Below, one piece after another: positions 7,951 through 27,390 of a stretch of 35,836 nt of DNA (within the stretch, counting starts at the first letter, position 1; the number at the start of each line of letters is the position of its first letter). The DNA is from an uncultured Elusimicrobium sp. (GTDB taxonomy: Bacteria; Elusimicrobiota; Elusimicrobia; Elusimicrobiales; Elusimicrobiaceae), in NCBI GenBank assembly GCA_902766765.1, contig CACXER010000020.1:1-35836 (forward strand), read 5' to 3'. The position numbers were made by a program, and so were the translations under genes. The notes under the pieces are model-generated. The model searched no databases and had not been told where the DNA came from. It was given only the letters and a program-made list of their open reading frames with translations.

Positions 7951-9477
7951 ATGTTTGATAAGAAATCCTATACACTTTACAAATTTCATAAACAAATCAA
8001 CCAATCGTTTCAGGACAGGCGTGAACTGTTGGAATGCGCGCTTCCGGCGTTGCGTGATATGTTCCGCTTGGACCGCGTCTATTTTTTTGACTGGCAACAG
8101 GAACGTGCCATTTTATCCCTGCGTATGATGTGCAAAAAAGAATACTGCATGGACATGCAGGAGGATATTTCCGTCGCCAATGAGCCGGCTTTCTTGCGCC
8201 AACTCTTGCAAAAAGGAGTAGCGGAGACGACGGATTTAAGTTACCCGGCATTGTATGTGCTGATTCGTTGGTTGCGTCCGACCGTGGAATTAAAATCGGG
8301 CGAGGTCCATTCGTTCATGCGTGAAAAAGTAGGGGTTTTGCGCTTGGAGCGTTTCCGCAAAAACCGTGTATTTACGGATGCGGAAATTGACCTCATTAAA
8401 GATTTAGGGGCGGAAATCTCGCACAACTTACACAACACGGAAATTGACCAAGCCAAAAATCAGCGGCTTAGCATTTCCACCGCGCTTAATGATTTATCTA
8501 CGATTTTTGCCTCGTCGCTACGCTTGAATGACGGATTGGAACTTATTTTAAAAGGTATCCAACGCTATTTCCATTTTGACCGGGTGCATTTGTATTTAAC
8601 CAACTCCGAAGGCACGCGTATTAAATCGGTGTTGGGAGTGGATATTTCGGGAAACGTAACGCAGGAGTCCGGAGATAGTTTGCGCGACGAAGAAAAACAA
8701 ATTTTAAAAGAAGTATTTGAATCGTCTGCCACGTACCGTGCCAAACGCAGCGTGATTTATCTGCCGCTTAAAGTCCAGCGTACCAAAGTAGGTTTTTTGA
8801 CGTTTGACAATATCCTTTCCCGCCGGAAAATTGGCTATTTGGATTTTATTTCTCTGCAACAATTTGCCACGCAAATGGCGTTGACGATTGACAACGCGCG
8901 CCTGTTTGAACGTGTGCAAGAACTTTCCAATTATGACGAACTAACCAAACTTCCGGTGCGCCGGTATTTCAACGAAAAATTCGCCGAAGAAATTTACCGC
9001 GCCAAACGGTTTGGGCTGTCGCTCTCGCTTATCATTATGGACATTGACTGGTTCAAGCAAATCAACGACAAGCATGGGCACCAAATTGGTGACTGGGCAC
9101 TCAAGGCCGTGAGCAAAATTATCCGCTCGTCCTTGCGTCAGACGGATGTGCCTTGCCGCTTTGGCGGAGATGAAATGGTTATTATGCTTCCGCGTACCAA
9201 CAGCGAAGAATCCAAAGTGATCGCCCGCCGCTTGCAAGAACGCATTTGTGATGTCGTCTTGCCGGACCGCAATGCACTTGAGCCGGAACACCTCAGTATC
9301 AGCCAAGGGATATCCTCTTTTCCTTCCGATGGTACAACGGCCAACGAACTGTTAGAGAAAGCCGACCAGGCACTCTATGTAGTCAAGCAACATGGCCGCG
9401 GCAATTTTGCGGTATACCGCGAAGTGGCCGAACAAGTCCAACAGACGAGTCCCGAAGAACAAAAAGAAGAGAAGTAA
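7951..9477 (+). CDS. Diguanylate cyclase with two GAF-like domains
   Basis: The protein has 508 residues and no signal peptide or TM helix, so it is cytoplasmic. An N-terminal GAF-like region (about 20-165) and a second, clearer GAF (about 180-325, ending LTIDNARLFERV) precede a GGDEF domain (about 330-490). The domain has LIIMDIDWFKQINDKHGH and the active loop GGDEM (Gly405-Met409), with Met replacing the usual Phe, a change some active enzymes tolerate. An RxxD product-inhibition site (Arg396-Asp399) lies five residues before the loop, so feedback by c-di-GMP is expected. It is preceded 4 bases upstream by the signal-less solute-binding protein and is the last gene of the left operon. The output c-di-GMP could feed the pilus and surface functions downstream (inference). 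Confidence 0.92.
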   Translation: MFDKKSYTLYKFHKQINQSFQDRRELLECALPALRDMFRLDRVYFFDWQQERAILSLRMMCKKEYCMDMQEDISVANEPAFLRQLLQKGVAETTDLSYPALYVLIRWLRPTVELKSGEVHSFMREKVGVLRLERFRKNRVFTDAEIDLIKDLGAEISHNLHNTEIDQAKNQRLSISTALNDLSTIFASSLRLNDGLELILKGIQRYFHFDRVHLYLTNSEGTRIKSVLGVDISGNVTQESGDSLRDEEKQILKEVFESSATYRAKRSVIYLPLKVQRTKVGFLTFDNILSRRKIGYLDFISLQQFATQMALTIDNARLFERVQELSNYDELTKLPVRRYFNEKFAEEIYRAKRFGLSLSLIIMDIDWFKQINDKHGHQIGDWALKAVSKIIRSSLRQTDVPCRFGGDEMVIMLPRTNSEESKVIARRLQERICDVVLPDRNALEPEHLSISQGISSFPSDGTTANELLEKADQALYVVKQHGRGNFAVYREVAEQVQQTSPEEQKEEK

Positions 9478-9907: not shown

Positions 9908-12900
9908 ATGAACAACATCAAAAATTTAATCCGTCTCACCGTCGTTAAAACGGCCACCGCGGCCCTTTTAGCGGCATTTGTTTTTGCGGCGGTTGTACCC
10001 GCTCATGCCCAAACGGCCGACGTCCGCTACGCCGGGGTGTTTTATAAAGATCATCCTGCCAACACTAAGGAAATGTACTGCGATTATGTAACTACGGGTG
10101 CCACTACTGGTAAATCCAGTCCGTTTAACAACTCTACAATATTTTCTAATGCTCGCATAACAACTAACAATTATCCAACGGTAGGCGATATATATCCTGA
10201 TGGATCCGTTCAAGTACAATATTTGGGAAGTTTGGTAAGTTCTGCCATTGCATCGGTGGCTACCCTTCGTATTCCTGGAGCTACCTATAACGCGGGGGAT
10301 TATTATTATATTACTAGGGGAAGTTCTTTATTCTCGACAGATTTTTATTTCCAAGTCATAACGGCGGGTACGGCAGACTCCGTGAATAATAGTGATTTCG
10401 CTACTTCCGTTGGTTTTTCTACAACATATACCCCAAGAACAACTTTAACAGATGGAGAGTTAGTACTCACATTTTCTGGAAGTTCTTGTGGTTCGCCCGC
10501 CCGTCAGTCTAATCATAGTTACTCGGTGGGAGACACCTACCAACTTACTTCTGGTACGACTACCTATTGTTATACGGTATCCGGTATTTTGGATGGATCG
10601 GTGGCGATTCCCATAGCAGCTGGAACAACTGCTAATCGTAGTTTTATTTTTGAACCTAAACCGGCAAGTGCTTCCCACAACAATGACCCTTGGGTGAGTT
10701 CCGCACTTATTGAATACGACCAACCGTACAGTTCGTCGACTACTCCTACAACCCCTGGAGAGGGATACGAAGCGAACGAATATCCCAACCATTGTTTGGC
10801 TCTCTGTATGAATGTGAAGTGTTCCAATAAACCGCTTGGGGGTAGTACTTATTCTATTTCATTTCCACTCCAACAAATCCGGTTTGATGTGGTGAAATAC
10901 TATAACGGAAAAAATGTGGAAAATCCGGAAGAAACTCCGGCACTCCGTACCATTGATTTATATCCGAATGAAAATGCAGCGCGTTGCGGTTCATATAAGT
11001 GCCCGGGCTCTAATACAAGTGGATGGACTTGTAACTCTGCTAGATATTATTGCTCTAGTAACGGAGAGAGAGTGACTGTGCCCGTGACAGGAAAATGGAT
11101 AGGGGTTTCTAGTTGTAGTGACTGTGCCGCTTTTGATGGATCATCCGCTGCCCCTACTGATTGTAAATGTGCGGATGGTGTGTGTACCTTTGCCATTTGG
11201 AATGGAGACGGGACTCCTTCTACTGATAATCAAACCATCCCGTTCTGTGCGGCGTGGGACGGTTCGTATGAAATCGCAGGCGAATTCGGTAAAACAAACG
11301 GTAACTTTGCTTTCCGCGCTACCGTAAAGACCGACGTCCCCGGTGATAACATTATTACCGATAAAATCACTTTTGATTCTACGATCGCCTACCCGGGTAT
11401 GAACCAAATCCCGATACAGGTGGACGTAACTAATATCCATACCGTGCGCAGTACGCCTACGTTAGTCGGTAACATTACGCCGGTGTCCGCGCAACCTTAT
11501 ACTTATGCATACCGCTTAAGTAAAGATGCGGACGTGCGCGTAGCTGTGTTTGATGCGTCCAACTTGGACGCGGCGGTTTATGCCAGTACGGTGGCCGCTA
11601 CGTCAAACACCAGCACGCCGATCGGTGATGCGGGTAATACATACAGCGATTTAATCGTCCGCACGATTACCGATTGGCAACCGCGCATTGGCGAAGGTAT
11701 GAAAGGTACGGAAAAGGACGTGCAAATCACAGAGTTTGACTCGTGGGACGGACGCGATACAAGCGGTATGTTACTCCCTGCGGGTAATTACCTGGTTTCG
11801 TTACAAGCCAAGTCTGCCGATGAATGGCACGGTATTGACTTCTCCCGTGCCGTTACGCGCCAGTTATCTTTAGACCCCTTGAAACTGACGGATGTGGTGT
11901 CCGTGGGGTTAACCAAACAATCCACGGCGTATGCGTCTATTACCTACACGCCGACGGAATCTTCCAAAGTGTATTGGAATATTTACACGCCCGGTACTAC
12001 CTTTGATAGTGTGCTGACGGATTCTTCCGATGCAACGGGTACGGCACCGCACAACCCGACGGGTGGTTCCTTGGTGTACTCGCTCATTGAAGACCGCGTA
12101 GGCCGTATGAACTTTACTTCTAAATGGGATGGTCTGTGCGGAATTACGACCGGTTGTACCCGCACGTATGCCGCGGGCGAGAAAAAATCCGACGGTACTG
12201 TTGCCGCGGCGGGTGATACGGAAACGTTTGCTTACGGTTCCCCCATGCCCGACGGCAACTACGTATATGTGTTATGGGCGGAAATCCCCTATAACGGTAA
12301 ATACGTCAATGCGGTGGGTAGCGGCACAACCCCGCCCGCGCCGAAATTTACACCTAACGGTGCTTGTTCGGGGACTGCGCCGGAAATTGACAAACAATGT
12401 TTTACCGGTGTAAAGACGTTGAAATATACCGTCGGCGAAATTGCTGTGGAACGCGGCGTGGTGGACGTAACTATCCAACCCGTCAGTTATTCTACGGTGG
12501 GATCCAGCCCGACGGCTTACGGCTTAGACCCGTTCATCTTCAAATACTCTATCGCGCGTGACGCTACGGTGGTGGCTAAAGTAACCAACACCGCCGGTGC
12601 CAACGTGAAATTCTTAACGCCCGAAGAAGGTGTCACGCAAGTCGCCCAACAAATGAACACCATTTCGTGGGACGGCCGCGACGATGCCGGACGTATGGTT
12701 ACCCCCGGTACCTATATGTTTGTGGTGGAAACGGAAGATGCTATGTTCCCCGCTATTACCAACCGCGCCAGCGCAGTCTTCCCGGTGGATATGTACCGTG
12801 TGGTGGACTTGGCTACTACCGATGTATATGGCGATAGCGAGGCCAAAGCCACTATTTCCTATGCGCTTTCCAAAGCCATGAACACCCAAGTCAATATATA

Positions 12901-15121
12901 TAATAAGGATGTAGTCATCCCCAGTTATCAAACTACCACGGGTGATTACTCAAGTGCCGCTGTAACCGGTTCTGTAACGACGAACGGGTATACGAACGTA
13001 CTAAACCCCGTAACTATCAATGTAGACGAAGTGCCTAACGCGTACACCATGCCTGCTGGGTTAGGGACGTTTGTTGCCGGCGAAACACAAACAGTGGTGG
13101 CTCTTGTCGGTACAACGTATCACCGCTACACCGTCACGTTGAAGAACAACCCGGCAAATACGGCCACGCCCACCACGTGGTATGAACCTTACCTATATAT
13201 GGTAACGGTCATAGATGAAACATTAGATATCACGGCCGGTACCGCTGCTTGGCCGCCGCGCGTGTGTAATACGACGGATGATGCTGCGTATTTCACGGGT
13301 GGTTATGTCGACCCGGCCAAACAACCGACTTGTATTTACGTAAACAAAACGACCTTTACCAACTACCCGGCCAATGCTGCGGCTGTGGCTCAGGGTAATG
13401 TGGACGTACGCTTACAACCGATTAAAACGTTTGAACGTTCTTCCATGCACCCCGGCGACGGTTTAACCATCACCGAGGAATGGGACGCGCTCTACTTCCG
13501 CAATCCGGAAAGCCCGGCTTGTGCGGGTTCTACCAACTTGCAAAACTGCTCGTATGAAATGTTGCCCGACGGACAATATTCGTTCTACGTGTCCGCGCGC
13601 TCCAACGAGCCGTTTGACCGCTACTATTATGATAGTAACGTAGATAGTACCACCCACCCCACGGATCCCGTTACCGGAAATGCGTACCTCAACGGCACGC
13701 CGTTTAGAAGCGACGATGCGAACGGTACGTTCGTGACGCAAGATTACCTCTACGCTACGGATAAGGTTACCAGCAAAATCAACGTAACCCGCGGCTCTGT
13801 GTACTTCTTGGACGGTTCTACCGTGGTCTATCCGAATGCGCCGCAACTCTTTAACGTGTCGTCCGGCCCGGTGTTCGTGCCGCCGTACGAAATCAACTTC
13901 TCCGTCAGCCGCGCGGCTACGGTAGATATTGAAATCGTTGCCTTGCAAGACGGCGTTTGTACACCTGACCCCACTGTGCACGCGGACCTCAAGAATAACC
14001 GTGCGGGCGATGTGTGTAAGTCGCTTACAACCGTAACGATTCCCAACACGGGACACTTTGACCCGAATATCGTACGCAAGACGTATTGGGACGGTACCGA
14101 TAATAACGGTTTCTACGTCAAACCCGCTATCTATGAAGTGCGCTTGACGGCTAAGAACTATCCCAATCCGTACCTGTATCAACCGACGGTTAAGAGCATT
14201 ACGCTCAATGCCGACCTCTTGAAAGTCTTTGACCTCTTGGAGGCCGACGGCTATTCTATCTCCGTGCGCGGAGCCAATATGAAGATCGGTTATCAGATCT
14301 CTGTGCCGATGAAAGTGGCCTTACAAATCTTCAAACCCGGTACCACGATTTACGACTACCAAAAAGGTACGCTCCGTAATCCGACCACCGGAACTGAAGT
14401 CAAAGATATCCACGAAGTGTTAGTCAAAGCCATTGTGGGTATCCGCCCGGCCACCACCTTGATTGAAGAAGTTTGGGATGGCACCGACTACGCCGGACAA
14501 GAAGTGCCCGACGGTACCTACCCCTTCCGCTTCGTCACGGCTATCAATAGCGCTGATATTGATAGCGTAACGGGTGAAATTGTAGGCGAATGGGATAATA
14601 CGGACGGCCAGGCCAGTCAACCGGCTTTGTGGAAAATCAATAAAGTGGCTGATACCTATGAATATCAGAACTTGCACAAAGCCACTATCGCTATCGGCGA
14701 CGGACAATTCGTCTGCGAAGACTGGGAGAAAACGGTATTCTTCTATCCTAACCCGTTCACCGAAACGAACGGTACGTTAGAAATTACCAAGATGCCCGTG
14801 CCCGGCGAAGTGTCCATCAAGTTCTTTAACTTAGCGGGCGACCTCGTGCGCGACGGCGGTTATACCTGTGTGGATGCGAACAACTACCAAACGACCATGG
14901 GTAGCAGTTTGAAGTTCCAACCGGATAATAACGTCAGCAACACACCGGTCAACTTGGCTAACTTTGAAAATATCCGCAACGCCGCCCTGCGCTGCCGCTG
15001 GGATAAAACCAACCAGCACGGCAAGAAAGTGGCCCGCGGTGTATACTTTGGTTTGGTAGACTTCAAAGCCCAAATGGGTCGCGAACACTGCCAAAAAGTA
15101 GTGAAGGTATTGATCCCATAA
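9908..15121 (+). CDS. Giant exported surface protein with FlgD-type Ig repeats and CTD-like end
   Basis: The 1737-residue protein starts with a Sec signal peptide (about 1-34, ending AHA-QT). Residues about 35-290 are Ser/Thr-rich. Residues about 295-450 contain 13 Cys, several as CxxC or CxC, suggesting disulfides or metal binding. From about 450 onwards at least seven FlgD-like Ig units recur, each with a WDGxDxxGxxxPxGxY-type turn, at about residues 612, 737, 919, 1190, 1391, 1521 and 1697. The C-terminus has YPNPF (about 1612) and VARGVYFGLV, like the C-terminal Ig domains of bacteria with type IX-style sorting. A PorV-like barrel follows within 50 bp. The likely role is surface adhesin or fibre (inference). 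The first third has lower GC and different codon use from the rest. The start is supported by AGAAGGG 7 bases upstream. Confidence 0.85.
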   Translation: MNNIKNLIRLTVVKTATAALLAAFVFAAVVPAHAQTADVRYAGVFYKDHPANTKEMYCDYVTTGATTGKSSPFNNSTIFSNARITTNNYPTVGDIYPDGSVQVQYLGSLVSSAIASVATLRIPGATYNAGDYYYITRGSSLFSTDFYFQVITAGTADSVNNSDFATSVGFSTTYTPRTTLTDGELVLTFSGSSCGSPARQSNHSYSVGDTYQLTSGTTTYCYTVSGILDGSVAIPIAAGTTANRSFIFEPKPASASHNNDPWVSSALIEYDQPYSSSTTPTTPGEGYEANEYPNHCLALCMNVKCSNKPLGGSTYSISFPLQQIRFDVVKYYNGKNVENPEETPALRTIDLYPNENAARCGSYKCPGSNTSGWTCNSARYYCSSNGERVTVPVTGKWIGVSSCSDCAAFDGSSAAPTDCKCADGVCTFAIWNGDGTPSTDNQTIPFCAAWDGSYEIAGEFGKTNGNFAFRATVKTDVPGDNIITDKITFDSTIAYPGMNQIPIQVDVTNIHTVRSTPTLVGNITPVSAQPYTYAYRLSKDADVRVAVFDASNLDAAVYASTVAATSNTSTPIGDAGNTYSDLIVRTITDWQPRIGEGMKGTEKDVQITEFDSWDGRDTSGMLLPAGNYLVSLQAKSADEWHGIDFSRAVTRQLSLDPLKLTDVVSVGLTKQSTAYASITYTPTESSKVYWNIYTPGTTFDSVLTDSSDATGTAPHNPTGGSLVYSLIEDRVGRMNFTSKWDGLCGITTGCTRTYAAGEKKSDGTVAAAGDTETFAYGSPMPDGNYVYVLWAEIPYNGKYVNAVGSGTTPPAPKFTPNGACSGTAPEIDKQCFTGVKTLKYTVGEIAVERGVVDVTIQPVSYSTVGSSPTAYGLDPFIFKYSIARDATVVAKVTNTAGANVKFLTPEEGVTQVAQQMNTISWDGRDDAGRMVTPGTYMFVVETEDAMFPAITNRASAVFPVDMYRVVDLATTDVYGDSEAKATISYALSKAMNTQVNIYNKDVVIPSYQTTTGDYSSAAVTGSVTTNGYTNVLNPVTINVDEVPNAYTMPAGLGTFVAGETQTVVALVGTTYHRYTVTLKNNPANTATPTTWYEPYLYMVTVIDETLDITAGTAAWPPRVCNTTDDAAYFTGGYVDPAKQPTCIYVNKTTFTNYPANAAAVAQGNVDVRLQPIKTFERSSMHPGDGLTITEEWDALYFRNPESPACAGSTNLQNCSYEMLPDGQYSFYVSARSNEPFDRYYYDSNVDSTTHPTDPVTGNAYLNGTPFRSDDANGTFVTQDYLYATDKVTSKINVTRGSVYFLDGSTVVYPNAPQLFNVSSGPVFVPPYEINFSVSRAATVDIEIVALQDGVCTPDPTVHADLKNNRAGDVCKSLTTVTIPNTGHFDPNIVRKTYWDGTDNNGFYVKPAIYEVRLTAKNYPNPYLYQPTVKSITLNADLLKVFDLLEADGYSISVRGANMKIGYQISVPMKVALQIFKPGTTIYDYQKGTLRNPTTGTEVKDIHEVLVKAIVGIRPATTLIEEVWDGTDYAGQEVPDGTYPFRFVTAINSADIDSVTGEIVGEWDNTDGQASQPALWKINKVADTYEYQNLHKATIAIGDGQFVCEDWEKTVFFYPNPFTETNGTLEITKMPVPGEVSIKFFNLAGDLVRDGGYTCVDANNYQTTMGSSLKFQPDNNVSNTPVNLANFENIRNAALRCRWDKTNQHGKKVARGVYFGLVDFKAQMGREHCQKVVKVLIP

Positions 15122-15161
15122 GGAGAGATAATTTCCACTTGTGAAAAGGAAAATGAAATTT

Positions 15162-16145
15162 ATGAATATCAAAATCAAAGTTTTAACAGTCGGTTTAGTA
15201 GTTGCCTTTTGCGGCGCGTCTGCTTGGGCCAGCATCAATGAAAATGCCGGTACCAGCGCGGGAGCGTTCTTGAAAATCGGTGCGGGGGCTCCTGCCGCTA
15301 CGGCACTGGGTAATGCCTATGTGTCGCTGGCTGACGGCCCGCAAGCGCTGTTTTGGAACCCGGCCGGTGCGGCCAGTGCCTCTACGCGCGAAATAGGATT
15401 TTCGTACATGGACTATTTGCAAGGGTACAAAGCGCGTACGCTTTCGTACTTGCAACCGATTGGTAAAACGATTATCGGCGTATCCTTAAATTATATGGAT
15501 ATGAAAAACTTCGACTTCCGCGATAAATGGGGCCACCCATTACCGGAAGTTGGGGTGCCGGTGCAAAACTTTGTGGGCGGATTATCTATCGCGCGCGGGT
15601 TTATCAACCAGAAATTGCAAATCGGCGGTACGGCTAAGTATATCAGCGAACGCTTGTACAACGGTTCCGGCCATAACCACTATGATAACGTCGGTTTTGA
15701 TGTAGGGGCTAAACTGCGCCTGGTCAACTGGCTGGGACTCGGTGGTGCTTTAGTCAACATTGGCGATAAAGAAGAAATGCCTAACGGTGTACGTTTAGGG
15801 GCGGATTTGGATACGCGTTATTTCACTATTTCCGGTGAATATATGAAGTATAAAGACGACAACGCCCGCTACGGTTTCGGTTTAGCCGTACATATTCCGG
15901 AAGATTTGTTACAGGTCGCACGCTTTGATTTGCGCGTCGGCTATTATACGCGTGAAAATACCGGTGTTAATACGCAAGATTCGTGGGTTAAAGAAGTCGG
16001 CCTGCAAGAAACGTCGCGCGTATCGTTCGGGTTCGGTATTTACAGTTCCGAACTGTTTGGGTACGGGGCATCTATTGATTACTCCGTTACGCCGTTTGGT
16101 GCGCTCGGTACATCGCAACAAATTGCGGTGTCTGTGCAATTCTAG
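15162..16145 (+). CDS. PorV/UPF0164-like outer-membrane beta-barrel protein
   Basis: The mature protein begins with GTSAGAFLKIGAGAPAATALGNAYVSLADGPQALFWNPAG, in pieces the hallmark of the PorV/PorQ/UPF0164 group of FadL-like barrels. A signal peptide (about 1-23, ending ASA/AWA) precedes it, the body alternates short amphipathic strands with turns, and the chain ends in Phe (VSVQF), the usual barrel-assembly signal. In type IX secretion PorV delivers substrates with a C-terminal sorting domain to the surface; the gene just upstream encodes a protein with such an Ig-like end, so this could be its partner (inference). The start at 15162 gives a compact signal peptide with AAGGA 11 bases upstream; ATG at 15153 and GTG at 15141 are in-frame alternatives. 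The stop is 2 bases before the first pilin gene. Confidence 0.85.
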   Translation: MNIKIKVLTVGLVVAFCGASAWASINENAGTSAGAFLKIGAGAPAATALGNAYVSLADGPQALFWNPAGAASASTREIGFSYMDYLQGYKARTLSYLQPIGKTIIGVSLNYMDMKNFDFRDKWGHPLPEVGVPVQNFVGGLSIARGFINQKLQIGGTAKYISERLYNGSGHNHYDNVGFDVGAKLRLVNWLGLGGALVNIGDKEEMPNGVRLGADLDTRYFTISGEYMKYKDDNARYGFGLAVHIPEDLLQVARFDLRVGYYTRENTGVNTQDSWVKEVGLQETSRVSFGFGIYSSELFGYGASIDYSVTPFGALGTSQQIAVSVQF

Positions 16146-16147
16146 GT

Positions 16148-16333
16148 ATGTTTAAAAGAGGAAAAGGGCTTCTTAAAAACAAACAAGGACAAAGCGCCGT
16201 AGAATATATGATTGTAGCGGCGGGATTGTTTACGGCCATTATTTCCTTTTACGTGTTATATTCGTACTTAGTACCGCAGCAATTTGACCAAGGGTCGCAG
16301 ATTATTTTGAAGGAATACGAAGCAGGGAAATAG
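16148..16333 (+). CDS. Flp-like prepilin 1
   Basis: This 61-residue protein has a basic leader ending Gly14, then QSAVEY with Glu at mature position +5, then a hydrophobic helix (about 21-42). That is the Flp/type IVb prepilin pattern G|xxxxEY, cut by a TadV/CpaA-type peptidase and assembled into the pilus shaft. It starts 2 bases after the PorV-like gene, so translation may be coupled. The short post-helix tail (LKEYEAGK) suits a small pilin. It differs from the second pilin in length and tail, so one may be a minor subunit. Confidence 0.8.
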   Translation: MFKRGKGLLKNKQGQSAVEYMIVAAGLFTAIISFYVLYSYLVPQQFDQGSQIILKEYEAGK

Positions 16334-16355: not shown

Positions 16356-16586
16356 ATGAAATTCATCGTCGCGATGCAAAACAGATTAGACGCCCTCAAA
16401 GCGCAAGCCTTAGGGTGCCTGAAGAAAAAAGAAGGGCAAAACACCATTGAATACGTGCTCATGCTCGTAGTGGTTGTCGGTGTGGCCGGTTTGGCGGGCG
16501 TACTGATTAAAAAATTCATGCCGGATTTGTTTGACCAAGTCAAAGCCAAAATCTTGGGCGGCATGGAAAAATCGGGCGACTTCTAA
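16356..16586 (+). CDS. Flp-like prepilin 2, probably the major pilin
   Basis: The 76-residue protein has a basic leader to Gly27, then QNTIEY (Glu32 at +5) and the hydrophobic stretch VLMLVVVVGVAGLAGVLI, followed by a short charged tail. This matches the Flp major pilin family well. It has its own strong ribosome site (TAGGAGGAAG at 16341-16350), better than that of its neighbours, in keeping with a highly expressed structural subunit (inference). It sits between prepilin 1 and the TadE-like gene. Confidence 0.85.
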   Translation: MKFIVAMQNRLDALKAQALGCLKKKEGQNTIEYVLMLVVVVGVAGLAGVLIKKFMPDLFDQVKAKILGGMEKSGDF

Positions 16587-16589: not shown

Positions 16590-17075
16590 ATGAAATTTTG
16601 TAAGAAGTGTGGGGGGCAGGTAACTGCGGAACTCATGCTGATTTTGCCGGTATTTATGCTCATGATTTTCTTTGTGCTTGAATACGGCAACATCGCATAC
16701 CACACGGTTATTGCAAACCACGCTTCTTACGAATTTGCCCGTATCGGCTCGCTGGTGGCCGTTAAAAAACCCAGCGGCCGGCCGGATCGGACGGTCATTA
16801 CCCAAAAGGTAAACCAGGCCAAACAGAAAGTATTTGGCTCTAAAGCAGGCGGAATCGGTGTCAACGTAAAAGTAGAAACTACCGGCGTGGACCCCATGTA
16901 TAAGAAGCACCGCCACGAAGATGTAATTATTACGGTAACGTATCCGGTGCATTTGTTATTTCCGGGTACCAGTTATGTGCTCGCCAGCGAGCCCAAACGC
17001 GAAGGCATCCGCCGTATTAAAGCCGTAACGCGTATGCCGATAGATAAGACGTATTTAAGTTCGGACACGAAATAG
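16590..17075 (+). CDS. tadE: TadE-like minor pseudopilin
   Basis: The 161-residue protein has a short leader KFCKKCGG, then QVTAELMLILPVFML with Glu14 at mature +5, and a single N-terminal TM helix followed by an exported domain of about 120 residues. This is the TadE arrangement: pseudopilins processed by the prepilin peptidase and needed for Tad pilus assembly. YEFARIGSL after the helix is a typical TadE-like continuation. It is 3 bases after prepilin 2. The leader carries two Cys residues close to the cleavage point, which is unusual. Confidence 0.8.
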   Translation: MKFCKKCGGQVTAELMLILPVFMLMIFFVLEYGNIAYHTVIANHASYEFARIGSLVAVKKPSGRPDRTVITQKVNQAKQKVFGSKAGGIGVNVKVETTGVDPMYKKHRHEDVIITVTYPVHLLFPGTSYVLASEPKREGIRRIKAVTRMPIDKTYLSSDTK

Positions 17076-17118: not shown

Positions 17119-17874
17119 ATGAAAAGCAGAGGAGTCTTTCTACCCATGATCGTGGCGGTAATAGCCGCACTCATATACTGGATGATTGTAAGCAGCGCGG
17201 AAAAGAAATTAAACGCTTCCAAAAACGTGAAGGAAGTGTTTGTGGCGCTTCGCGATATCAAAGAGCGCGAAGTGATTAAACGCGATTTGATTCACCATGT
17301 ACCGGTTCCGGCCGCGTATATCCAAAAAGACGCGTTTACTTATTCCACCGAGGCCGATTTTAAAGCCATAGAAAATGCGGTAGCGCGTATTCAAATTGCG
17401 AAAGGGAACCAGATTTCTAAATATGCTATTACGTCGTTATCTCCGGAAGCGGGGCTATCCAGCAAAATTCCGGTGCAAATGCGCGGCTACCTGATTAGTG
17501 TACCGATTGCTACGGCCAGCATGATTAAACCCGACGACAACGTGGACGTGCTTTTGACTTTTGAAGCCGTCATGAAAAGCGGCAACCGCCAACGGGTGGC
17601 GCTCACGTTGTTGCAGAACGTCAAAGTGCTCGGGGTAGGCGCGGATTTAGGTCAAGGATTGGATGCCCGCACCGCCAATGCTATGAAGAGCAAAGATGAA
17701 GATGCGGCGGCTTTCTCGGATAACTCCACACTTTCGCTCGCGCTGTCTCCGCGCGATGCGCAGTACTTGGCGTTAGCCGAAGCGGAGGGCGATATCTCCG
17801 TCATTTTACGTTCTCACGGTGACGTGAATAACTACTTGATGGAAATTGCAACCTTTGAAAAATTATTTAACTAA
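17119..17874 (+). CDS. cpaB: Flp pilus assembly protein CpaB/RcpC
   Basis: The 251-residue protein has an N-terminal TM anchor (about 5-25) and a SAF-like domain (VFVALRDIKEREVIKRDLI, about 40-65, and the AIENAVARIQIAKGNQI segment, about 85-110), then the CpaB-specific GYLISVPIATASMIKPDDNVDVLLTF in pieces and LQNVKVLGVG. CpaB/RcpC sits in the periplasm beside the secretin and is thought to stabilise or gate it. The ribosome site AAGGAGAC (17109-17116) fixes the ATG. A gap of 43 bases from tadE is one of the larger ones inside the locus. The secretin gene follows 11 bases on. Confidence 0.9.
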   Translation: MKSRGVFLPMIVAVIAALIYWMIVSSAEKKLNASKNVKEVFVALRDIKEREVIKRDLIHHVPVPAAYIQKDAFTYSTEADFKAIENAVARIQIAKGNQISKYAITSLSPEAGLSSKIPVQMRGYLISVPIATASMIKPDDNVDVLLTFEAVMKSGNRQRVALTLLQNVKVLGVGADLGQGLDARTANAMKSKDEDAAAFSDNSTLSLALSPRDAQYLALAEAEGDISVILRSHGDVNNYLMEIATFEKLFN

Positions 17875-18633: not shown

Positions 18634-20952
18634 ATGGCAGAAGAACACGAAAATTCCCAAAATGAAGCCAAAATAATCGCTTTTTCCGGGCCGAAAGAAG
18701 GCGTCGGAAAAACGACGCTCGTGTTAAATTTAGCGCTAGGTTGGGCCGGTATCCAAAAGCGCCCGGTGTTGATTGTTCCGTTAGATCCGCTCGCACGTCA
18801 GGAACATAGTTTCTATTTGGATATTGAAAATCCGGTTAGCGTATCGGATTTGCTCAAAGTATTAGGAAATACCTCTATTGCGGTAGTAGGGGGGCTTTTA
18901 CGTGGGAAAATTTCCATGTCCCAGTGGGGAGTAGGGTTGTTGCCGCTCGGTAATACGCGTGCGCAAGTGGCGGCGATTAGTCCGAAAATTTTAATGCCGA
19001 TTTTGTCTCGCTTGGCGCAGACATTTGATATCTTTTTAGATGTAGACTCCAGCTTCCCGATGCAGGCCTTTGCGTTTGATATTGCCGATAAAGTGTTTTG
19101 GGTATCCAACGCAACGCGTACGCATATCAATTCTACGGTCCAACTTTTTAACGATTATAAAGAACAACATTATCCTATGGACCGGGTCAGCGTGATTTGC
19201 AACGGTTTTGATATGCCCGGTTCTATCCCATACGAAGAAATTGAACGGTTTTATTCACAACTGGGGCACGAGGTAGATGTATTCCTGCCGTGGGACGCCG
19301 ATGTGATGGCTACTTCCAACCGCCGCGAAGTGGAAATTATTGTCAGTCCGCAAGCGGAATGGGTGAAAGGATTACGTTTAATCTTGGCTAAAATACGCGA
19401 CTTAAACCCGGCTCCTAAAGATTGGACAACCTCCGTTTCCGATGAAGAATTTACCCAAGCGGCGCAACAAATTTGGTCGCCGGTGCTATTCAACGAGGGG
19501 AAAGGTTCGGCCAGCCCGGACCACATCGCCCGCGAAGACGAAGGCGAAAAAACACAACTTTCCTTTTGGGATGATTTGAAACAAAAAATCCATAAAGAAG
19601 TCGTCCGCACGCTGGAAATTGAACACATTGTCATTAGTGAAGAAAGTACCGCCAGCGAACAAACCCGCAAACGGGTGTCTGCGATTGTGGATGACATCTT
19701 GCAGAAACAACCGAATTTGCAATTCTCTCGTGACCAGCGTACGCGGTTTACGTCGGAATTGTTGGATGAAATTTTAGGGTTGGGGCCGCTGGAAGTTTTA
19801 ATGCGCGACCCGGGTGTAACCGAAATCATGGTCAACGCCTTTGATAAAATCTTTATCGAACAAAAAGGTAAGTTGACACTGACAAAATACAAATTTAGAA
19901 ATAACGAACAAGTGGTGCAAGTCATTAAACGTATTGTGGCCCCGCTCGGCCGCCGTATTGACGAATCTGTACCGCTCGTGGACGCGCGTTTGAAGGACGG
20001 TTCCCGTGTCAACGCCATTATTGCGCCGTTGGCCGTTTCCGGTCCGACGCTGACCATCCGCCGTTTCTCTACCAAACCTTTCGGACCGGAAGATTATTAC
20101 CGTTTTGGTACGATCAGCCCGGAGTGTATGGAATTTATTAAGAAGTGCGTGAAAATCCGCAAGAACATTATTGTCTGCGGTGGTACCGGTACCGGTAAAA
20201 CAACGTTCCTAAACGCTATTTCCGGGTATATTGCTGACGATGAGCGTATTATTACCGTAGAAGATACGGCGGAACTCCGGTTGCAGCAACCGCACTGGGT
20301 ATCGCTGGAAAGTCGTCCGCCAAACGTGGAAGGCAAAGGGGCGGTAACGATTCAAGATTTAGTTAAAAACTGTTTGCGTATGCGTCCGGACCGAATTGTA
20401 GTCGGGGAGTGCCGCGGCGGCGAAGCGTTAGACATGTTACAAGCCATGAACACCGGGCACGAAGGATCGTTGACCACGATTCACGCCAACACCCCGCGCG
20501 ACGGATTATCTCGTTTGGAAGCCATGTGTATGCAAACGGGAGCCGATTTGCCGATTTTCGCCATCCGCGAAATGATTTCTTCCGCGGTGAACATGATCGT
20601 CCAACTTTCCCGTTTTTCGGACGGTTCACGTAAAGTGACCTATATTACCGAAATGCACGGTCAGAAAGACGGGCAGATTCAATCCACCGATTTGTTCCGC
20701 TATGTACAAACCGGGGTGGATGAAAACGGTAAGGTGCAAGGTGTTTTCGCTCCGACAGGGCAACTACCCACTTTCTATGACGAATTTGCGGCTAAAGGCC
20801 AACCTGTAGACGAAGCCGTGTTCAAAAAAGGTGCAGTTCCGTTAGATGAAAACGGCGAGCCGGACTTGGCTGCCGTGCACCGTTTACAAGGAAAGCCCGA
20901 TGTGCCGCCCGCGCCGCCGGTTATGCGGCCCGCACCGCCTCAGGGAGCATAA
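18634..20952 (+). CDS. tadA: TadZ-TadA fusion: ParA-like localisation domain plus pilus ATPase
   Basis: The 772-residue protein joins two Tad proteins that are usually separate. Residues about 12-265 are a TadZ/CpaE-type MinD/ParA domain with a deviant Walker A (Lys21 and Lys26 in PKEGVGKTT) and a [11 protein letters not shown] Walker B-like segment. After a linker (about 270-320), residues about 325-700 are CpaF/Tad[29 protein letters not shown], the Walker [10 protein letters not shown] (Lys522), [26 protein letters not shown] and [21 protein letters not shown]. The tail is Pro-rich. TadZ marks the assembly site and TadA powers extrusion, so fusion would tie motor to position. No frameshift sign is seen. 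Confidence 0.93.
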
Positions 20953-20959
20953 AAGAGAT

Positions 20960-22582
20960 ATGAAAAAACTACGCGCCGTGGCACTGTCTTTTGTTCTCAT
21001 CGTGACCTTGTTGGGAATTCCCTTGCAAAGTCACGGGCGTGCGTTGTCCGAGACTGATCGCGATCGTATCCGTTGTGCAATGGAAAAAATGCACATTATG
21101 GCGCGTTTTTTTGATGTGCACGTGTCTAATGAGGAAAAAGAAAAAAAATCCGATTTGTCGGAAATGTGTGGTGGGCGTCACGTACCTCTGCCGGAGTGGT
21201 TCCCCGAAGAACTCGCTCGTATGGAAGCCAATAAAGTGGTCTATGTCCCTAACGAAGGGACGTATAGCGAGGTAGATCTGTGGCGTCAGGCATTTTCCAA
21301 CGTATATTTATTTTTGGAGCGGGCCGATCAATCGTTAGATCCCAGCCGTCCGCTTGTGTTGGATCAATTGGCACGCGGCTATGTAGGAAATCGCATCAAC
21401 TTGTTGGCTACCTTGGACCGGTTGAATAAAGATTTACTGCGTGGGAAAGAACTCCTCGTCATGAAAAACAGTATGCAAGGGCGTGCGCGCTCTATGCTTG
21501 CGACATTTGAACTCATCAATAGCGAATTTTTCAGTACGATAGAATCTTTTTCCAGTCCGCTTCGGCAGCGTGAAGATAAATATCGCAAATCTGTGATGGC
21601 GGTAGTTGTGTTGGCTAACCATTTGTTCTCGCAATTTATGAGTTCGCCTATTCCTACCGGTGTGCCGGATCCGAAAATTTATCAAGCCACACCTACCGAA
21701 CGTACTGTCAGTCTGGTCTTAGTGTTGACAGGGGCCTTGTTGGCCGGGTTAGCCGTGTTCTTGCTGTTGGAAGATCGGCGCAGTGACATTTCTGCCTTTT
21801 TGGAGGAATACCGTAAGAAAAGCGAAGTATGGGCAGAAGATTTTAATCGTCAGTTCGTGACAATTGATATTAAATATATTGTGTTTGGTACCATAGCCCT
21901 GTTTGCTGTATTCGGGTTGCTACTGGGTCTGTTAGCCGGTGGCTTTTTGGGCGTGTTTATTTTCCTCTTGGTTTTATTCTTAGGCGGTGTAGTAAGTATC
22001 CGGATGCCGATGGCCGTGCTGGATACGTTGAAGAAAAGCCGTGGGCACAAGGTCAACGCGCAACTGATGGATTCGCTGATTTTACTTTCCAACTCACTTC
22101 GTTCGGGTATGGATATCGTGCAAGGTTTCGAACTTGTATCGCGTGATATGTTGCCGCCGATTGCCGACGAATTCGGCTTGGTGGTTAAAAATTATCAGTT
22201 AGGTACACCGTTTGAAAAAGCCCTGGACGGCCTCACCGAACGGGTGGAAAGCCGGATGCTTTCTTATATCGTAAAAGCCATCATTATTCAGCGGCAAGTC
22301 GGTGGTAACCTGACGGTTATTTTCTCGCGCTTGGTAGAAAACATTCGCGAAGAGAGTAAATTGGAAGAGAAATTACAGGCCATGACCGCCCAACAAAAGA
22401 TACAATCTATTGTGGTAAGTATTATGCCGTTTGTAATGATGCTGGTGATGTTTATCTTTAACCCGGTACAGATGCTGTCGTTCTACACCAGTCCGTTGGG
22501 GATTTGTGTGTTCCTGTTCTGTATCATCTGGATTGGTATTGGTATGAAGATCCTGAAGAAAATGGGTGAGGTACGGGTATAG
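20960..22582 (+). CDS. tadB: TadB-like platform protein with extra exported N-terminal domain
   Basis: This 540-residue protein is far longer than usual TadB (about 320). The C-terminal part (about 300-540) is TadB: two TM helices, a T2SSF domain (LMDSLILLSNSLRSGMDIVQGFELV to RQVGGNLTVIFSRLVENI, in pieces) and C-terminal TM helices. Before it are a signal-peptide-like segment (about 8-28), an unrecognised helical region of about 220 residues with a Cys pair in the first third, and a TM helix (about 248-268). The extra region is probably periplasmic. The ATG at 20960 is 7 bases after the ATPase gene and next to AAAAGAGA; upstream in-frame codons overlap that gene and are not needed. TadB and TadC form the inner-membrane base of the pilus. 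Confidence 0.88.
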   Translation: MKKLRAVALSFVLIVTLLGIPLQSHGRALSETDRDRIRCAMEKMHIMARFFDVHVSNEEKEKKSDLSEMCGGRHVPLPEWFPEELARMEANKVVYVPNEGTYSEVDLWRQAFSNVYLFLERADQSLDPSRPLVLDQLARGYVGNRINLLATLDRLNKDLLRGKELLVMKNSMQGRARSMLATFELINSEFFSTIESFSSPLRQREDKYRKSVMAVVVLANHLFSQFMSSPIPTGVPDPKIYQATPTERTVSLVLVLTGALLAGLAVFLLLEDRRSDISAFLEEYRKKSEVWAEDFNRQFVTIDIKYIVFGTIALFAVFGLLLGLLAGGFLGVFIFLLVLFLGGVVSIRMPMAVLDTLKKSRGHKVNAQLMDSLILLSNSLRSGMDIVQGFELVSRDMLPPIADEFGLVVKNYQLGTPFEKALDGLTERVESRMLSYIVKAIIIQRQVGGNLTVIFSRLVENIREESKLEEKLQAMTAQQKIQSIVVSIMPFVMMLVMFIFNPVQMLSFYTSPLGICVFLFCIIWIGIGMKILKKMGEVRV

Positions 22583-22584: not shown

Positions 22585-23472
22585 ATGAGCGGAATGATGA
22601 CCTTGCTGGCAGCCGTACTGTTGATTATCAGCACCTTGTGCGTAGGGGTGACGGTGTTTAATTTGTTCGCTCCGAAAGAACAAGGGGGCGGCGTAGCCGA
22701 TATTGCCGTCAAACGCTTTAAATCTACTTCCAGTTTCTCGCGTTTGCAACCGGAAGAAAAATTTTTGGACCGCATTGCCGCTTTCTGTCTGCGAACGTTT
22801 AATGTGGAAGATTCTTTGGAAGAGATGCATTTGCAACTCGGCAGTCCCGATACGCCTCAGCCGGTAAATATTCTGTACACTAAAATTTTGTGTGCGTTGA
22901 TTGTTCCGCCGGCGATCATGTTGCTGTTCCAAGCGTTCTGGCCCATTATTTTAGTGCCGATTTGTTTCTATATCCCAGATGTGCTAATTAAAAGTAAAAT
23001 TCAAAAACGTCAAGCGGAAATTTTAGGCAACTTCTCTACCACGGTGGACTTGGCCGCTTTGATTATTGAATCCGGGTTGGACTATTTGACGGCGTTTGAG
23101 CGTATTATTAAAATTGCCAAAGAAAAAACTATTTTGGAAGAAGAATTGGAAAAGACCATCAACGAAATTAAACTGGGTTATTCCCGTCGCGAAGCCTTGG
23201 AACGCTTTGCCGCGCGTACCGGAGTGCAGGAGGTTCGCTCTCTGGTAGGGTTGATTATTCAGTCGGATGAACTCGGTACCAGTTTGGTGGATTTGCTACG
23301 CAACTTCTCTACGGATTTACGTGCTCGCCGGTTGAGCCGGGCCGAGAAGTTGGCCGCGCAAGCATCTACTAAAATGCTTTTCCCGCTTTTTATGTTCATC
23401 TTCCCGACGATTTTTATTTTAATTTTAGCGCCAATGATTATGGGCCTTGTCAATGGCGGTATGGGATTTTAG
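22585..23472 (+). CDS. tadC: Tad pilus platform protein TadC
   Basis: The 295-residue protein has TM1 (about 3-28), a cytoplasmic stretch, a hydrophobic pair (about 93-130), a T2SSF domain (about 145-265; FSTTVDLAALIIESGLDYLTAFERI and SLVGLIIQSDELGTSL in pieces, then LRARRLSRAEKLAAQASTKM) and a final TM segment (about 268-290). The EKLAAQASTKMLFPL junction is characteristic of TadC. It starts 2 bases after tadB, as expected for partner subunits with matched expression. Confidence 0.93.
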   Translation: MSGMMTLLAAVLLIISTLCVGVTVFNLFAPKEQGGGVADIAVKRFKSTSSFSRLQPEEKFLDRIAAFCLRTFNVEDSLEEMHLQLGSPDTPQPVNILYTKILCALIVPPAIMLLFQAFWPIILVPICFYIPDVLIKSKIQKRQAEILGNFSTTVDLAALIIESGLDYLTAFERIIKIAKEKTILEEELEKTINEIKLGYSRREALERFAARTGVQEVRSLVGLIIQSDELGTSLVDLLRNFSTDLRARRLSRAEKLAAQASTKMLFPLFMFIFPTIFILILAPMIMGLVNGGMGF

Positions 23473-23484: not shown

Positions 23485-24945
23485 ATGAAAAAATATATTA
23501 CACTTCTGTTTCTTTTTACTTGTGCTGCTGCCACTGTGTGGGCGGCTAATACGTACAACCGGGAAACCCCTGTCCGGCAACACGGCAAAGAGGCCGGCAT
23601 GCTTTTGGATTTGGGGAAAATCTCCATGGGTACGCTCAACGATGTAGAAGAGCGTAAACAATATCTTTCCACGGTCCAGTTGGAAAAGCAACGTATTCAA
23701 AATTATACGCTCCGGATGGTGTATGATAATGCCTATACACTCTATAAACAAGGGGATTATCAACGGGCACAAGAAATGGCGCAAACTATTTTAAGTATTG
23801 ACCCGAACTTCAAACAGGCCCAAACGCTCGCCAAACAAGCGCAAAATATGGGGACATACGGCACAACCTCAGAAGCACAAGTGATAGAGGCCAAATTTCA
23901 GGAAGCATCCCGCCTCTACGATAGCGGCCGCTTGGTGGAAGCCAATGATAAGGTTAACGAAATTTTAACCCTCCAGCCCGGTAACACCAAGGCGCAATCG
24001 TGGAAACGTAAAATTGACTACGACATCGCTAAAGAATATGCCCGTCGCGGTGATGAAGCGGAAAAAAATGAGGATTATCAAAAAGCCTTGGATGCTTGGT
24101 ACAATGCCCTTTTGATGCGTAAAGACGACCCGAAATTAGTGTCCAAAATTGCCGACGCGGAAAATAAACTACGCAAACAGCAAGTGGAAGACTACATGAA
24201 ACAGGCCTTGGATTTTTATAACAAAGGCCAATATGTGGAATCGTACGCGGTGTTTGAACGCATTACCAAAATTCAACCCGGTGACCCTCGCGTGCAAAAA
24301 TACATGTCCCAACTGAAAAATGAAATTGCTGCCGGATATTATACGGCCGGGAGCCGTTCGTATAACTCGTATAAATACGATCAAGCCATTTCGTATTGGA
24401 ACAATGCTAAAAAGTGGGGGGCGGATTCTTCGGCGATGGACGGCCTAATTAAACAGGCTCGCAATGCCAAAGAAGAATATTTGCGTTTACAACAACAAGC
24501 GCGACTCAAACAAGTGCAAAAAGCAACCGCTGCCGCCGAAGCCGCGGCTAAAGCCGCCGAAGAAGCGGAAGAAGATAAACCGGAAGATATTGAAACCATC
24601 ACGGTAGATACATCGGTGCCCGGTATGCCCGGGCAGACCATTATTCCCGGGGCTTCGTCAAGCACGACGACTACTACCACAACTACCACGACAACGACCA
24701 CTACTTCGTCCAGCACCAGTAGTGGTGTAGGAAACGAAACCTTGCCGGCTATTGGTAGTGGGGTAAGCCGCGTATCGGCCGAAGCGCGCGAGGCTTCTCG
24801 TGCTAAATATATTGAAGGGTTGGACGCGTATAACCAAGACGACTTTGAACGTGCGCGTCAAGCGTGGATTGTGGCTAAACAATTAGATCCGGGCAACAGC
24901 GATGCCGATTTGGGATTACGTAAAGTGGACGAACTACTTAAATAA
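23485..24945 (+). CDS. Exported TPR protein with polythreonine linker (TadD-like position)
   Basis: The 486-residue protein has a signal peptide (about 1-20) and no lipobox Cys at the cleavage point. Six TPR-like units can be read: AYTLYKQGDYQRAQEMA, ASRLYDSGRLVEANDKV, GDEAEKNEDYQKALDAW, ALDFYNKGQYVESYAVF, GSRSYNSYKYDQAISYW and, after the linker, GLDAYNQDDFERARQAW. An Ala/Glu-rich helix (about 345-370) and a stretch of 14 consecutive Thr (residues 394-407) flanked by Ser separate the last unit. The Thr codons are mixed, so the tract is kept at protein level. TadD lipoproteins with TPRs help assemble Tad secretins; this gene has the position for that role, but anchoring must differ. The linker could be glycosylated (inference). 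Confidence 0.8.
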   Translation: MKKYITLLFLFTCAAATVWAANTYNRETPVRQHGKEAGMLLDLGKISMGTLNDVEERKQYLSTVQLEKQRIQNYTLRMVYDNAYTLYKQGDYQRAQEMAQTILSIDPNFKQAQTLAKQAQNMGTYGTTSEAQVIEAKFQEASRLYDSGRLVEANDKVNEILTLQPGNTKAQSWKRKIDYDIAKEYARRGDEAEKNEDYQKALDAWYNALLMRKDDPKLVSKIADAENKLRKQQVEDYMKQALDFYNKGQYVESYAVFERITKIQPGDPRVQKYMSQLKNEIAAGYYTAGSRSYNSYKYDQAISYWNNAKKWGADSSAMDGLIKQARNAKEEYLRLQQQARLKQVQKATAAAEAAAKAAEEAEEDKPEDIETITVDTSVPGMPGQTIIPGASSSTTTTTTTTTTTTTTSSSTSSGVGNETLPAIGSGVSRVSAEAREASRAKYIEGLDAYNQDDFERARQAWIVAKQLDPGNSDADLGLRKVDELLK

Positions 24946-24957: not shown

Positions 24958-26067
24958 ATGAAATTGGGAGCCAAATGGGTTTTGTGGTTTTTATTAGTGG
25001 CAGTGTATGCCGGCGTTATTGGCGGATTGTATTACTACAATGTATTTAAGTTTGTATTTGATAAAAAATTACAAAATGAAATGGTAGAAATGGTCCGTTA
25101 CCGGGCCCCTTCGCTGGTGCAACAGTTAGTGGCCCGCCCGAAAGGGGAAGCCACTTTCCGCGAAGCCGAAATCATGAAAAGTTTGATCCGCAACGATGAC
25201 CGCATTAAAAGTTTAGTGTATCTCAATTACGATGGTTCCATTCGCTGGCACGAAAACACTAAATTTTTAGGAATGTCCTTTCCGGATTACAGTAGCGAAG
25301 TCGGGTTTGATACCCGTAGTGTGGCGGATTCTTTCCGTAGTCGTTTACCGCGCGCTGTGTTGTTTGACAAAGGGGAATCGTATGATATGGCTATTCCGCT
25401 GCTTGCCAAAGACAACATGGTGGCCGGTGTCGTCAATGTAACGGTGTCACGGGTCAGTGCTAAAAAATTGATTGAAACCTCTATGGTTCGTTATGCCATT
25501 GGTGCTTTTATCATGATGGTACTGATCGGCGGGGTGTTATACTTATTTCTACTACTCAAAATTGTTCGTCCGCTGGGTGCCTTAAAGGATGGCATTGATG
25601 CGGTGACTATGAATAATTTGGTGTTGGATTTTCCGGCCCGGCGTGACGAAATCGGAGATGTAGCGCAAGCCGTAGAAGGATTGTTGGGTAAAGTGCGCGA
25701 AGATATCAAGGGACTTGAAAATGTGGAAGTTATGTCCCTGGAAAAAGAGCAACGTTGGTGGAAAACGATTTTTGCCGTCATGGTGCCTAAAGGAACACGT
25801 GCGATTGTAGTAGATGAAAATAATAACATTCTCTATACAAATTTTGAACTCAATTTCCCCGGTAAAAAACAAGTGCACCTGCTGGATTTGTTTGATAGTC
25901 GCCAACGTGAGATTATTCAAGTGGTTGGGGAAGCCATGGAAAACCCCACCAAAGTATTACGTGGTTCGGTGGAAAATAAAAATGTACAATGTGTAGTGAA
26001 AGCCGTACAGTTGCCCGATGATGCTGGGAAGAATCGTATTGTTTTAGTATTAGAGCCGGAAAAATAA
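24958..26067 (+). CDS. Membrane HAMP sensor lacking an output domain
   Basis: The 369-residue protein has TM1 (about 7-28), a periplasmic domain (about 30-172; KSLVYLNYDGSIRWH looks like a Cache/PAS-type sensor sheet), TM2 (about 176-200), a HAMP domain (about 201-252; IVRPLGALKDGIDAV and RRDEIGDVAQAVEGLL) and a C-terminal PAS-like part (about 275-369; RAIVVDENNNILYTNFEL). No histidine kinase, GGDEF, phosphatase or methyl-accepting region follows. It may pass its signal by protein contact, perhaps to the kinase encoded 1.3 kb downstream (inference). The ribosome site CAGGAGA 6-7 bases upstream fixes the ATG. Confidence 0.75.
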   Translation: MKLGAKWVLWFLLVAVYAGVIGGLYYYNVFKFVFDKKLQNEMVEMVRYRAPSLVQQLVARPKGEATFREAEIMKSLIRNDDRIKSLVYLNYDGSIRWHENTKFLGMSFPDYSSEVGFDTRSVADSFRSRLPRAVLFDKGESYDMAIPLLAKDNMVAGVVNVTVSRVSAKKLIETSMVRYAIGAFIMMVLIGGVLYLFLLLKIVRPLGALKDGIDAVTMNNLVLDFPARRDEIGDVAQAVEGLLGKVREDIKGLENVEVMSLEKEQRWWKTIFAVMVPKGTRAIVVDENNNILYTNFELNFPGKKQVHLLDLFDSRQREIIQVVGEAMENPTKVLRGSVENKNVQCVVKAVQLPDDAGKNRIVLVLEPEK

Positions 26068-26373: not shown

Positions 26374-27312
26374 ATGAAAAAAATGCTTGCTCTTTTTATG
26401 GCCTTCACTTTTACGGGTGTAGCCATGGCGGCTCCGGCTGCTAAAACCGCTTCTCAAGCCAAACCCCAGGCCAAAGCGGAATTCATCATTATAGAATCCG
26501 AAGACTATGAGGCCGGTAAAGAAGATCCGCTTCTTACCCGAGGTATCGCTCAGTTTTTAGAGGCTACTTCGTCGGTTACTCATGTGCCTGTCAGTAAAGC
26601 GGCGGCGGACCCGAAGTTGGCCAATTTGGATTATAGTTTCTTGCCGTTGTATTTAGTTAAAAAAACAAAAGCGTTCCGCAAAAAAATGGAGCAACCGTTG
26701 CAACAAGGTTACGTGCAAGAAAATGATGATTTTATCATTTTAGCGCATCAAACCAACCAAGGGGTTTACAACAATAAAGAAGCCAAACCCGGCGTTATGG
26801 AATTGTTTGTTATGTCCCAGTGTCCGTTTGGGGTGCGTGCGGAAGAATTTATCATTAAAGCCAAAAAAGACGGCACGTTCCCGAAAGATAAAACGGTACG
26901 CGTGCGCTATATTGTAGACTATCTTGCGGATCGTGGCTTTTCCAGTTTACATGGTTCCGGCGAATGGGAAGAAAACGTTCGCCAACTTCTGATTGCTAAA
27001 TACTATCCGGAGAAATTCTGGAAATATTTGGAAATCCGCAATAAAGATTATCGGTCCAGCCGCTGGGATAAAGCCATGGAAGCGGCCGGAATTAACCCGA
27101 ACAAAATTATGAAAAAATTTGATACGGAAGGCATGGAATTGCTCAAGGCCGAAGCCCAATATATCAAAGACTATGGGATAAGTGCTTCTCCTACTTTGGT
27201 TTGGGAAGGCAAGGTACAGATGGGCTTGAATACGGCGAGCCAAATCCCGGGGTTTGAATTTTTCAATGCCTCCGCTCCCGGTACGCCCGAGGCCCCTGCC
27301 GGCAGTTGCTAA
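26374..27312 (+). CDS. Exported thioredoxin-fold protein with single active-site Cys
   Basis: The 312-residue protein has a signal peptide (about 1-20), an Ala/Lys-rich stretch, an N-terminal domain of about 100 residues of unknown type, and a DsbA/GILT-like thioredoxin fold (about 138-290). The active-site segment MELFVMSQCPFGVRAEEF has Cys150 followed by PFG, so the usual second Cys of CxxC is absent. The cis-Pro loop is ISASPTLVW. The only other Cys is the very last residue (Cys312). It may act as an isomerase-like or binding protein, or use the terminal Cys as resolving partner (inference). Cys-rich clients exist in the same gene string (the giant surface protein). It is followed by two hairpins rather than a coupled gene. 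Confidence 0.75.
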   Translation: MKKMLALFMAFTFTGVAMAAPAAKTASQAKPQAKAEFIIIESEDYEAGKEDPLLTRGIAQFLEATSSVTHVPVSKAAADPKLANLDYSFLPLYLVKKTKAFRKKMEQPLQQGYVQENDDFIILAHQTNQGVYNNKEAKPGVMELFVMSQCPFGVRAEEFIIKAKKDGTFPKDKTVRVRYIVDYLADRGFSSLHGSGEWEENVRQLLIAKYYPEKFWKYLEIRNKDYRSSRWDKAMEAAGINPNKIMKKFDTEGMELLKAEAQYIKDYGISASPTLVWEGKVQMGLNTASQIPGFEFFNASAPGTPEAPAGSC

Positions 27313-27336
27313 TAAATCTTTTAACAAAGCAAAAGG

Positions 27337-27386: not shown

Positions 27387-27390
27387 GGTT

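Follow-up and report, generated by a model that had tools for sequence, protein, structure and literature searches.

What are a giant exported protein and an outer-membrane barrel of the PorV family doing at the head of a Tad pilus operon? The question is raised by a window of 35,836 nucleotides, the whole stretch of DNA that was analysed, which is contig C20 of a 1.36-Mb genome (102 contigs, 87% complete) from a gut Elusimicrobiota of the family Elusimicrobiaceae. We propose, with a probability of about 0.6, that the two proteins are cargo and carrier in a pared-down, type IX-like route of export across the outer membrane that is integrated into the Tad operon. In the type IX secretion system (T9SS) of Flavobacterium, the lateral opening of the translocon SprA is where PorV docks, the C-terminal domain (CTD) of the cargo binds loops of PorV in the pore, and PorV carries the cargo out (PMC10994853). 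Genes of the T9SS have been reported as absent outside the Fibrobacteres–Chlorobi–Bacteroidetes (FCB) phyla, and type IX secretion has been described as confined to the Bacteroidota and the other FCB phyla (PMC11285876). We found no report of T9SS parts, or of a locus joining such a giant protein and PorV to Tad genes, in Elusimicrobiota, in a literature search whose coverage leaves out most subscription journals.

The giant protein, the barrel, and their conserved place

The initial annotation had described an exported protein of 1737 residues ending in YPNPF...GVYFGLV, and the open reading frame (ORF; 9908-15121), the signal peptide, and the terminal motif, which reads in full YPNPF...GVYFGLV...KVLIP, are all present. 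The first residue after the predicted signal-peptide cut, at position 35 (nucleotide about 10010), is a glutamine that at least 90% of the family share; it recalls the Q-rule reported for signal-peptide cuts in Bacteroidetes. A conserved FlgD-type repeat motif (WDG, in one case WDA) occurs six times over residues about 545-1600, in a rod-like run of Ig repeats. The Pfam model FlgD_ig matches the whole protein in three stretches (71 bits, cut-off 27), and these are its only matches in the genome.

We modelled the CTD with AlphaFold (residues 1591-1737, 61 homologues) and obtained a confident immunoglobulin-like (Ig-like) fold (predicted local distance difference test score of 85.7). Compared with all chains in the PDB, it is closest to the CTD of PorU (Foldseek 1.2e-5; Z 10.0 over 100 residues, 2.9 Å) and then to that of PorZ (Z 8.7 over 89 residues, 2.4 Å), both of which are known type IX sorting-type domains. 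The CTDs of NucA and RemA, solved in translocon complexes, follow at Z 7.4 and 7.0. The sequence model of PorZ also matches this end of the protein (E 1e-5). The FlgD Ig-like family (PF13860) recurs in the repeats inside the giant protein but gives no match to the CTD alone (window 14678-15118) at E values up to 1. This missing match, and the place of the PorU and PorZ CTDs as the top structural matches, set the last domain apart from generic FlgD Ig domains. FlgD structures were also not among the structural matches listed, which does not by itself prove a difference.

The next gene had been read in the initial annotation as a barrel of the PorV/UPF0164 type, and the family searches bear this out: the NCBIfam model PorV_fam matches with an E value of 1e-24, and the Pfam models PorV and UPF0164 match weakly. 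The ORF has 334 codons from a GTG, and its homologues point to an ATG at 15162 as the likely start. The structure model has 14 strands, and its closest solved structures are the PorV chains of the Flavobacterium T9SS translocon (Z 29.5 and 29.1). When a profile of the barrel was compared with all PDB chains, the only sequence match was PorV of F. johnsoniae (E 5e-4). The genome has one close PorV and one further PorV-like protein elsewhere. The latter, a PorV/TraF_2-like barrel of 525 aa (L047:2-1579, on G000:C30), is the only other PorV-family protein found in it, and a contig end hides the gene upstream.

We examined the order of genes around the best 80 PorV relatives in named genomes (database contigs), which come from gut Elusimicrobiaceae and from Elusimicrobiales of groundwater and sediment, all within the phylum Elusimicrobiota. 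The gene of the giant protein lies directly upstream of PorV in 69 of these 80 loci, and in 9 the contig ends at that point; counted over the loci with a visible upstream gene, the figure is 69 of 70. Hence, the arrangement is not due to chance. Where the contig allows it to be seen, practically all Elusimicrobiales loci that we examined have the pair at the head of the Tad operon. The order giant protein, PorV, (Flp), TadE, CpaB, secretin, TadA, TadB, TadC, tetratricopeptide repeat (TPR) protein recurs in the same genus and in the sister family, at PorV identities of 35 to 43%, and is also found in a relative whose genome is a single contig of 1,643,562 bp. A PorV gene is present in 85 of 90 Elusimicrobiaceae genomes. 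One locus (L108) has an extra copy of PorV, and there the Tad-linked copy still follows the giant protein.

Some loci depart from this pattern in detail. In L121, a single ORF of 1374 aa (L056:9668-13792) spans the giant protein and PorV, with the PorV signal peptide in mid-ORF and the giant protein devoid of its last residues; we set aside a natural fusion, as a frameshift or a lost stop codon is likelier. In L092, L098, and L120, the usual giant protein is preceded by a second giant-like protein of about 1220 aa. In the sister family, two extra genes precede the giant protein, both missing in the gut lineage: one encodes a barrel-like protein (weak TraF_2 match) with a coiled-coil tail (L085:3253-4617), the other a protein that combines a coiled coil, a single apparent membrane helix, and an end resembling a propeller (L085:4885-6624).

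An SprA homologue and PorV gene pairs across the phylum

A type IX-like route of the kind suggested in the initial annotation supposes an SprA-type translocon, and the genome encodes a single SprA homologue, an ORF of 1780 aa (G000:C3, L070:4011-9353). It matches TIGR04189 in several colinear stretches (107.5 bits, E 3e-31), below the equivalog cut-off of 200 bits. Searches of the genome with PF14349 and PF18962 gave no match; the protein was found with TIGR04189, which is the longer model. Likewise, a PDB search with the single sequence gave no match, and a profile built from 11 of its relatives matched SprA only (E 1e-33), in colinear stretches over SprA 150-1570. Judged from these profiles, the homology to SprA is clear. 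In profile searches of 294 genomes of the phylum, SprA homologues were found in 254. Given one close PorV, FlgD-type matches in the giant protein only, and one SprA homologue, the Tad-linked giant protein would be the best candidate for a client of SprA in this genome. In several distant Elusimicrobiota, the SprA homologue is encoded beside LptF and LptG, before a ComF-like gene (L070:1707-9353, L073, L075, L079).

In many Elusimicrobiota, candidates of the PorV family and of the FlgD type number in the tens per genome. The FlgD-type domains stand at the very C-terminus in 18 of 20 sampled proteins, 10 to 24 residues from the end. We sampled PorV paralogues from the best-scoring matches, so that the counts leave aside the rate among weaker paralogues. 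Of the 18 sampled paralogues whose upstream gene could be read, 13 directly follow a gene with a C-terminal FlgD or type A domain; among non-adjacent ORFs, 3 of 74 have such a domain (Fisher p 2e-9). A fourteenth case (L174) was recognised by eye and with TIGR04183, the type A model. Eight of the nine tested PorV-adjacent CTDs from other Elusimicrobiota proteins exceed the cut-off of that model (23.4 to 39.8 bits). In addition, SprA is absent from 22 of the 23 PorV-negative genomes (Fisher p 3e-21). Nearly all of these are small Endomicrobium-like genomes, and genome reduction in one clade accounts for part of the co-absence.

How do these genes compare with the known branches of the T9SS? In the Bacteroidota, the gene of a type B cargo is often directly followed by that of its own specialised carrier, as in the SprB-SprF system of Flavobacterium johnsoniae, where the carrier gene (a PorP/SprF shuttle) lies directly downstream of a large adhesin-like cargo gene (PMC12618676). 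The gene pairs of Elusimicrobiota look like they follow the same logic; unlike SprF, their carriers are of the PorV type and the signal is of the type A kind. As in the type A route, an SprA homologue, PorV-family barrels, and type A-like CTDs occur together in one genome and across the phylum. The differences from the type A route are that we found neither a GldM/GldN match nor a PorU sortase, that Elusimicrobiota have many PorV paralogues beside cargo genes instead of one general PorV, and that the phylum lies outside the FCB group. We put forward tentatively, at somewhat less than even odds, that Elusimicrobiota share an SprA-PorV-CTD export without the known motor, ring, and sortase, in which each PorV-type carrier would serve a single cargo, and that reduced gut lineages would be down to one pair serving the Tad pilus. 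If this is true, the SprA-PorV-CTD core would widen the range of type IX beyond the FCB phyla, and would suggest that the motor is younger or less mobile than the pore, the carrier, and the signal. It would also provide a minimal, one-cargo version in which to ask what powers the export step, and tie the export of a surface protein to pilus assembly in a lineage of gut symbionts that has at least one cultured species.

Weighing the proposed type IX-like route

In the route proposed here, Sec would deliver the giant protein to the periplasm. By analogy with Flavobacterium, its CTD would enter the SprA-like pore and dock on PorV at the lateral opening, and PorV would then carry the protein into the outer membrane and hold it on the surface uncleaved. 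Cleavage has no part in the proposal because no PorU-type sortase was seen. At the surface, the giant protein may act as an adhesin or as a surface rod and be produced jointly with the Tad pilus. Its export, its surface display, and any contact with the pilus are inferred.

Several observations weigh against this interpretation. The CTD of the giant protein stays below the cut-off of the type A model TIGR04183 (15.0 bits, cut-off 23). The lead of PorU and PorZ in the structural comparison is modest, with unrelated Ig-like folds matching from Z 8.4 down, and the likeness of the modelled CTD to type IX domains is good but not conclusive. For the resemblance to sorting domains claimed in the initial annotation, the absence of a FlgD_ig match and the matches to the PorZ model and to the PorU and PorZ structures speak in favour, and the type A score does not. 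The other Ig repeats of the giant protein are FlgD-like and may be simply structural. For the barrel, the PorV_fam score of 87.3 bits is 2.7 under the cut-off of 90, and the channels FadL and TodX are tied with PorV as structural matches, within 1 Z unit. LptF and LptG adjoin the SprA homologue in the genome studied here, in the f1 and f2 relatives, and in a distant family.

The remaining points concern missing components. The initial annotation had also looked to PorM and PorN homologues, which did not turn up: GldM (the PorM motor) and GldN (the PorN ring) were each matched in 0 of 294 genomes, in a search that had no positive control, so that absence is not proven and remote versions may exist. 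A PorU-type C25 peptidase was not found in the genome itself (87% complete), and among the 218 Elusimicrobiota genomes searched for this family one has it. The two matches (L205 and L206, gingipain/PorU family) come from a single genome (G066) rich in PorV and FlgD-type genes. Because GldM and GldN are unmatched and the C25 peptidase is not in the genome, we do not class the locus as a T9SS, although it shares the core of the translocon. Neither of the findings that would have refuted the initial annotation turned up: an SprA homologue is present, and the CTD is not of the generic FlgD kind. The type IX-like route first suggested is thus partly supported, by these two findings but not by the searches for the motor, the ring, and the C25 peptidase or by the type A score of the CTD.

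The alternative that survives best, which we nevertheless consider unlikely, is that the giant protein and PorV are the structural outer-membrane end of the Tad machine, an Ig rod and a barrel that would hold the secretin, which is unusually short, or gate it, type IX-like export playing no part. The strict linkage of the pair to the Tad operon fits this explanation, and so does a secretin of 247 aa for which the operon offers no other recognised partner in the outer membrane. It fits less well with the PorV/CTD gene pairs found elsewhere in the phylum and with the phylum-wide SprA homologue. The Tad pili of other bacteria are not known to depend on a pair of an Ig protein and a PorV.

Appreciably less probable is an explanation in which the SprA homologue works with LptF and LptG in the traffic of lipopolysaccharide or phospholipids. 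The giant protein would then reach or stay in the periplasm or the outer membrane by other means, and the type IX likeness would reflect shared ancestry only. The LptF/LptG neighbourhood and the unmatched motor and ring proteins speak for this explanation; against it are the frequent adjacency of CTD genes to PorV genes and the type A scores above the cut-off in eight of the nine CTDs tested. The joint absence of SprA and PorV from reduced Endomicrobium-like genomes also speaks against it, even though these are one clade of shrinking genomes.

The least likely explanation, to which we give very little credence, is that PorV is no more than a FadL-type channel or an assembly factor beside an ordinary FlgD-repeat Ig protein, with no transport link: the near-tie with FadL/TodX structures and the commonness of the FlgD_ig family suit it, but the barrel profile matches PorV only, the CTD ranks with PorU and PorZ and escapes FlgD_ig, and the adjacency of the two genes is near-invariant.

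The Tad operon and its surroundings

We return to the cargo-carrier interpretation with the operon that the pair leads (Table 1). The initial annotation had placed the pilus genes within 2 bp of the barrel; PorV ends at 16145 and the ORF of the first Flp-like pilin, of 61 aa, starts at 16148. As in other Tad/Flp operons, Flp pilins, TadE, CpaB/RcpC, secretin, TadA, TadB, and TadC are present in standard form, and the Pfam matches of TadA, TadB/TadC, CpaB, secretin, and TadE exceed their cut-offs. Both Flp-like pilins show a GQ..(V/I)EY motif followed by a hydrophobic stretch, read from the sequence and not with a hidden Markov model. The operon differs from others in its leading pair, in a TadA with an N-terminal TadZ-like domain, and in its short secretin. 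TadZ and TadA appear to be fused in one protein (window 18634-20952). No prepilin peptidase (TadV) is among the operon genes scanned with Pfam, to which this search was limited.

Table 1. Features of the giant protein-PorV-Tad locus (positions in the window)
Feature	Position	Strand	Basis
GAF-GGDEF diguanylate cyclase, upstream gene conserved in relatives, candidate regulator	7951..9477	+	profile match, gene order in relatives
Giant protein (1737 aa) with signal peptide, N-terminal region rich in Cys, six Ig repeats of the FlgD type, and type IX-like CTD	9908..15121	+	ORF, Pfam FlgD_ig, conservation across 58 homologues
Signal peptide of giant protein, residues 1-34 (...AHA|Q)	9908..10009	+	sequence
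CTD of giant protein (residues about 1596-1737), a candidate for a sorting domain of type IX-like kind	14693..15118	+	AlphaFold model, structure matches
PorV/PorQ-family 14-strand outer-membrane barrel, candidate dedicated carrier of giant protein	15141..16145	+	family profiles, structure model
Flp-like pilin 1, 61 aa, GQSAVEYMIVAAGLF	16148..16333	+	position conserved in relatives
Flp-like pilin 2, 76 aa, GQNTIEYVLMLVVVV	16356..16586	+	position conserved in relatives
TadE-like minor pilin	16590..17075	+	PF07811
CpaB/RcpC	17119..17874	+	PF16976
Short secretin, 247 aa	17886..18629	+	PF00263
TadA ATPase with N-terminal ParA/CbiA-type (TadZ-like) domain	18634..20952	+	PF00437 and PF01656
TadB (T2SSF), true start probably after ORF start	20846..22582	+	PF00482
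TadC (T2SSF)	22585..23472	+	PF00482
TPR protein (TadD-like)	23485..24945	+	profile scan, gene order in relatives
HAMP-domain protein, conserved next in order	24958..26067	+	profile scan, gene order in relatives

An Rfam search of the window gave no match. Two promoter-like sites, at 9586 and 9765, are matches to the consensus and no more. The region after the Tad genes (window 26374-32937) encodes a weakly matched DsbA-like protein, two histidine kinases, a regulator of the NarL type, and another TadE-like protein, the second in the window. For a giant protein rich in Cys, a partner of the DsbA kind would be fitting.
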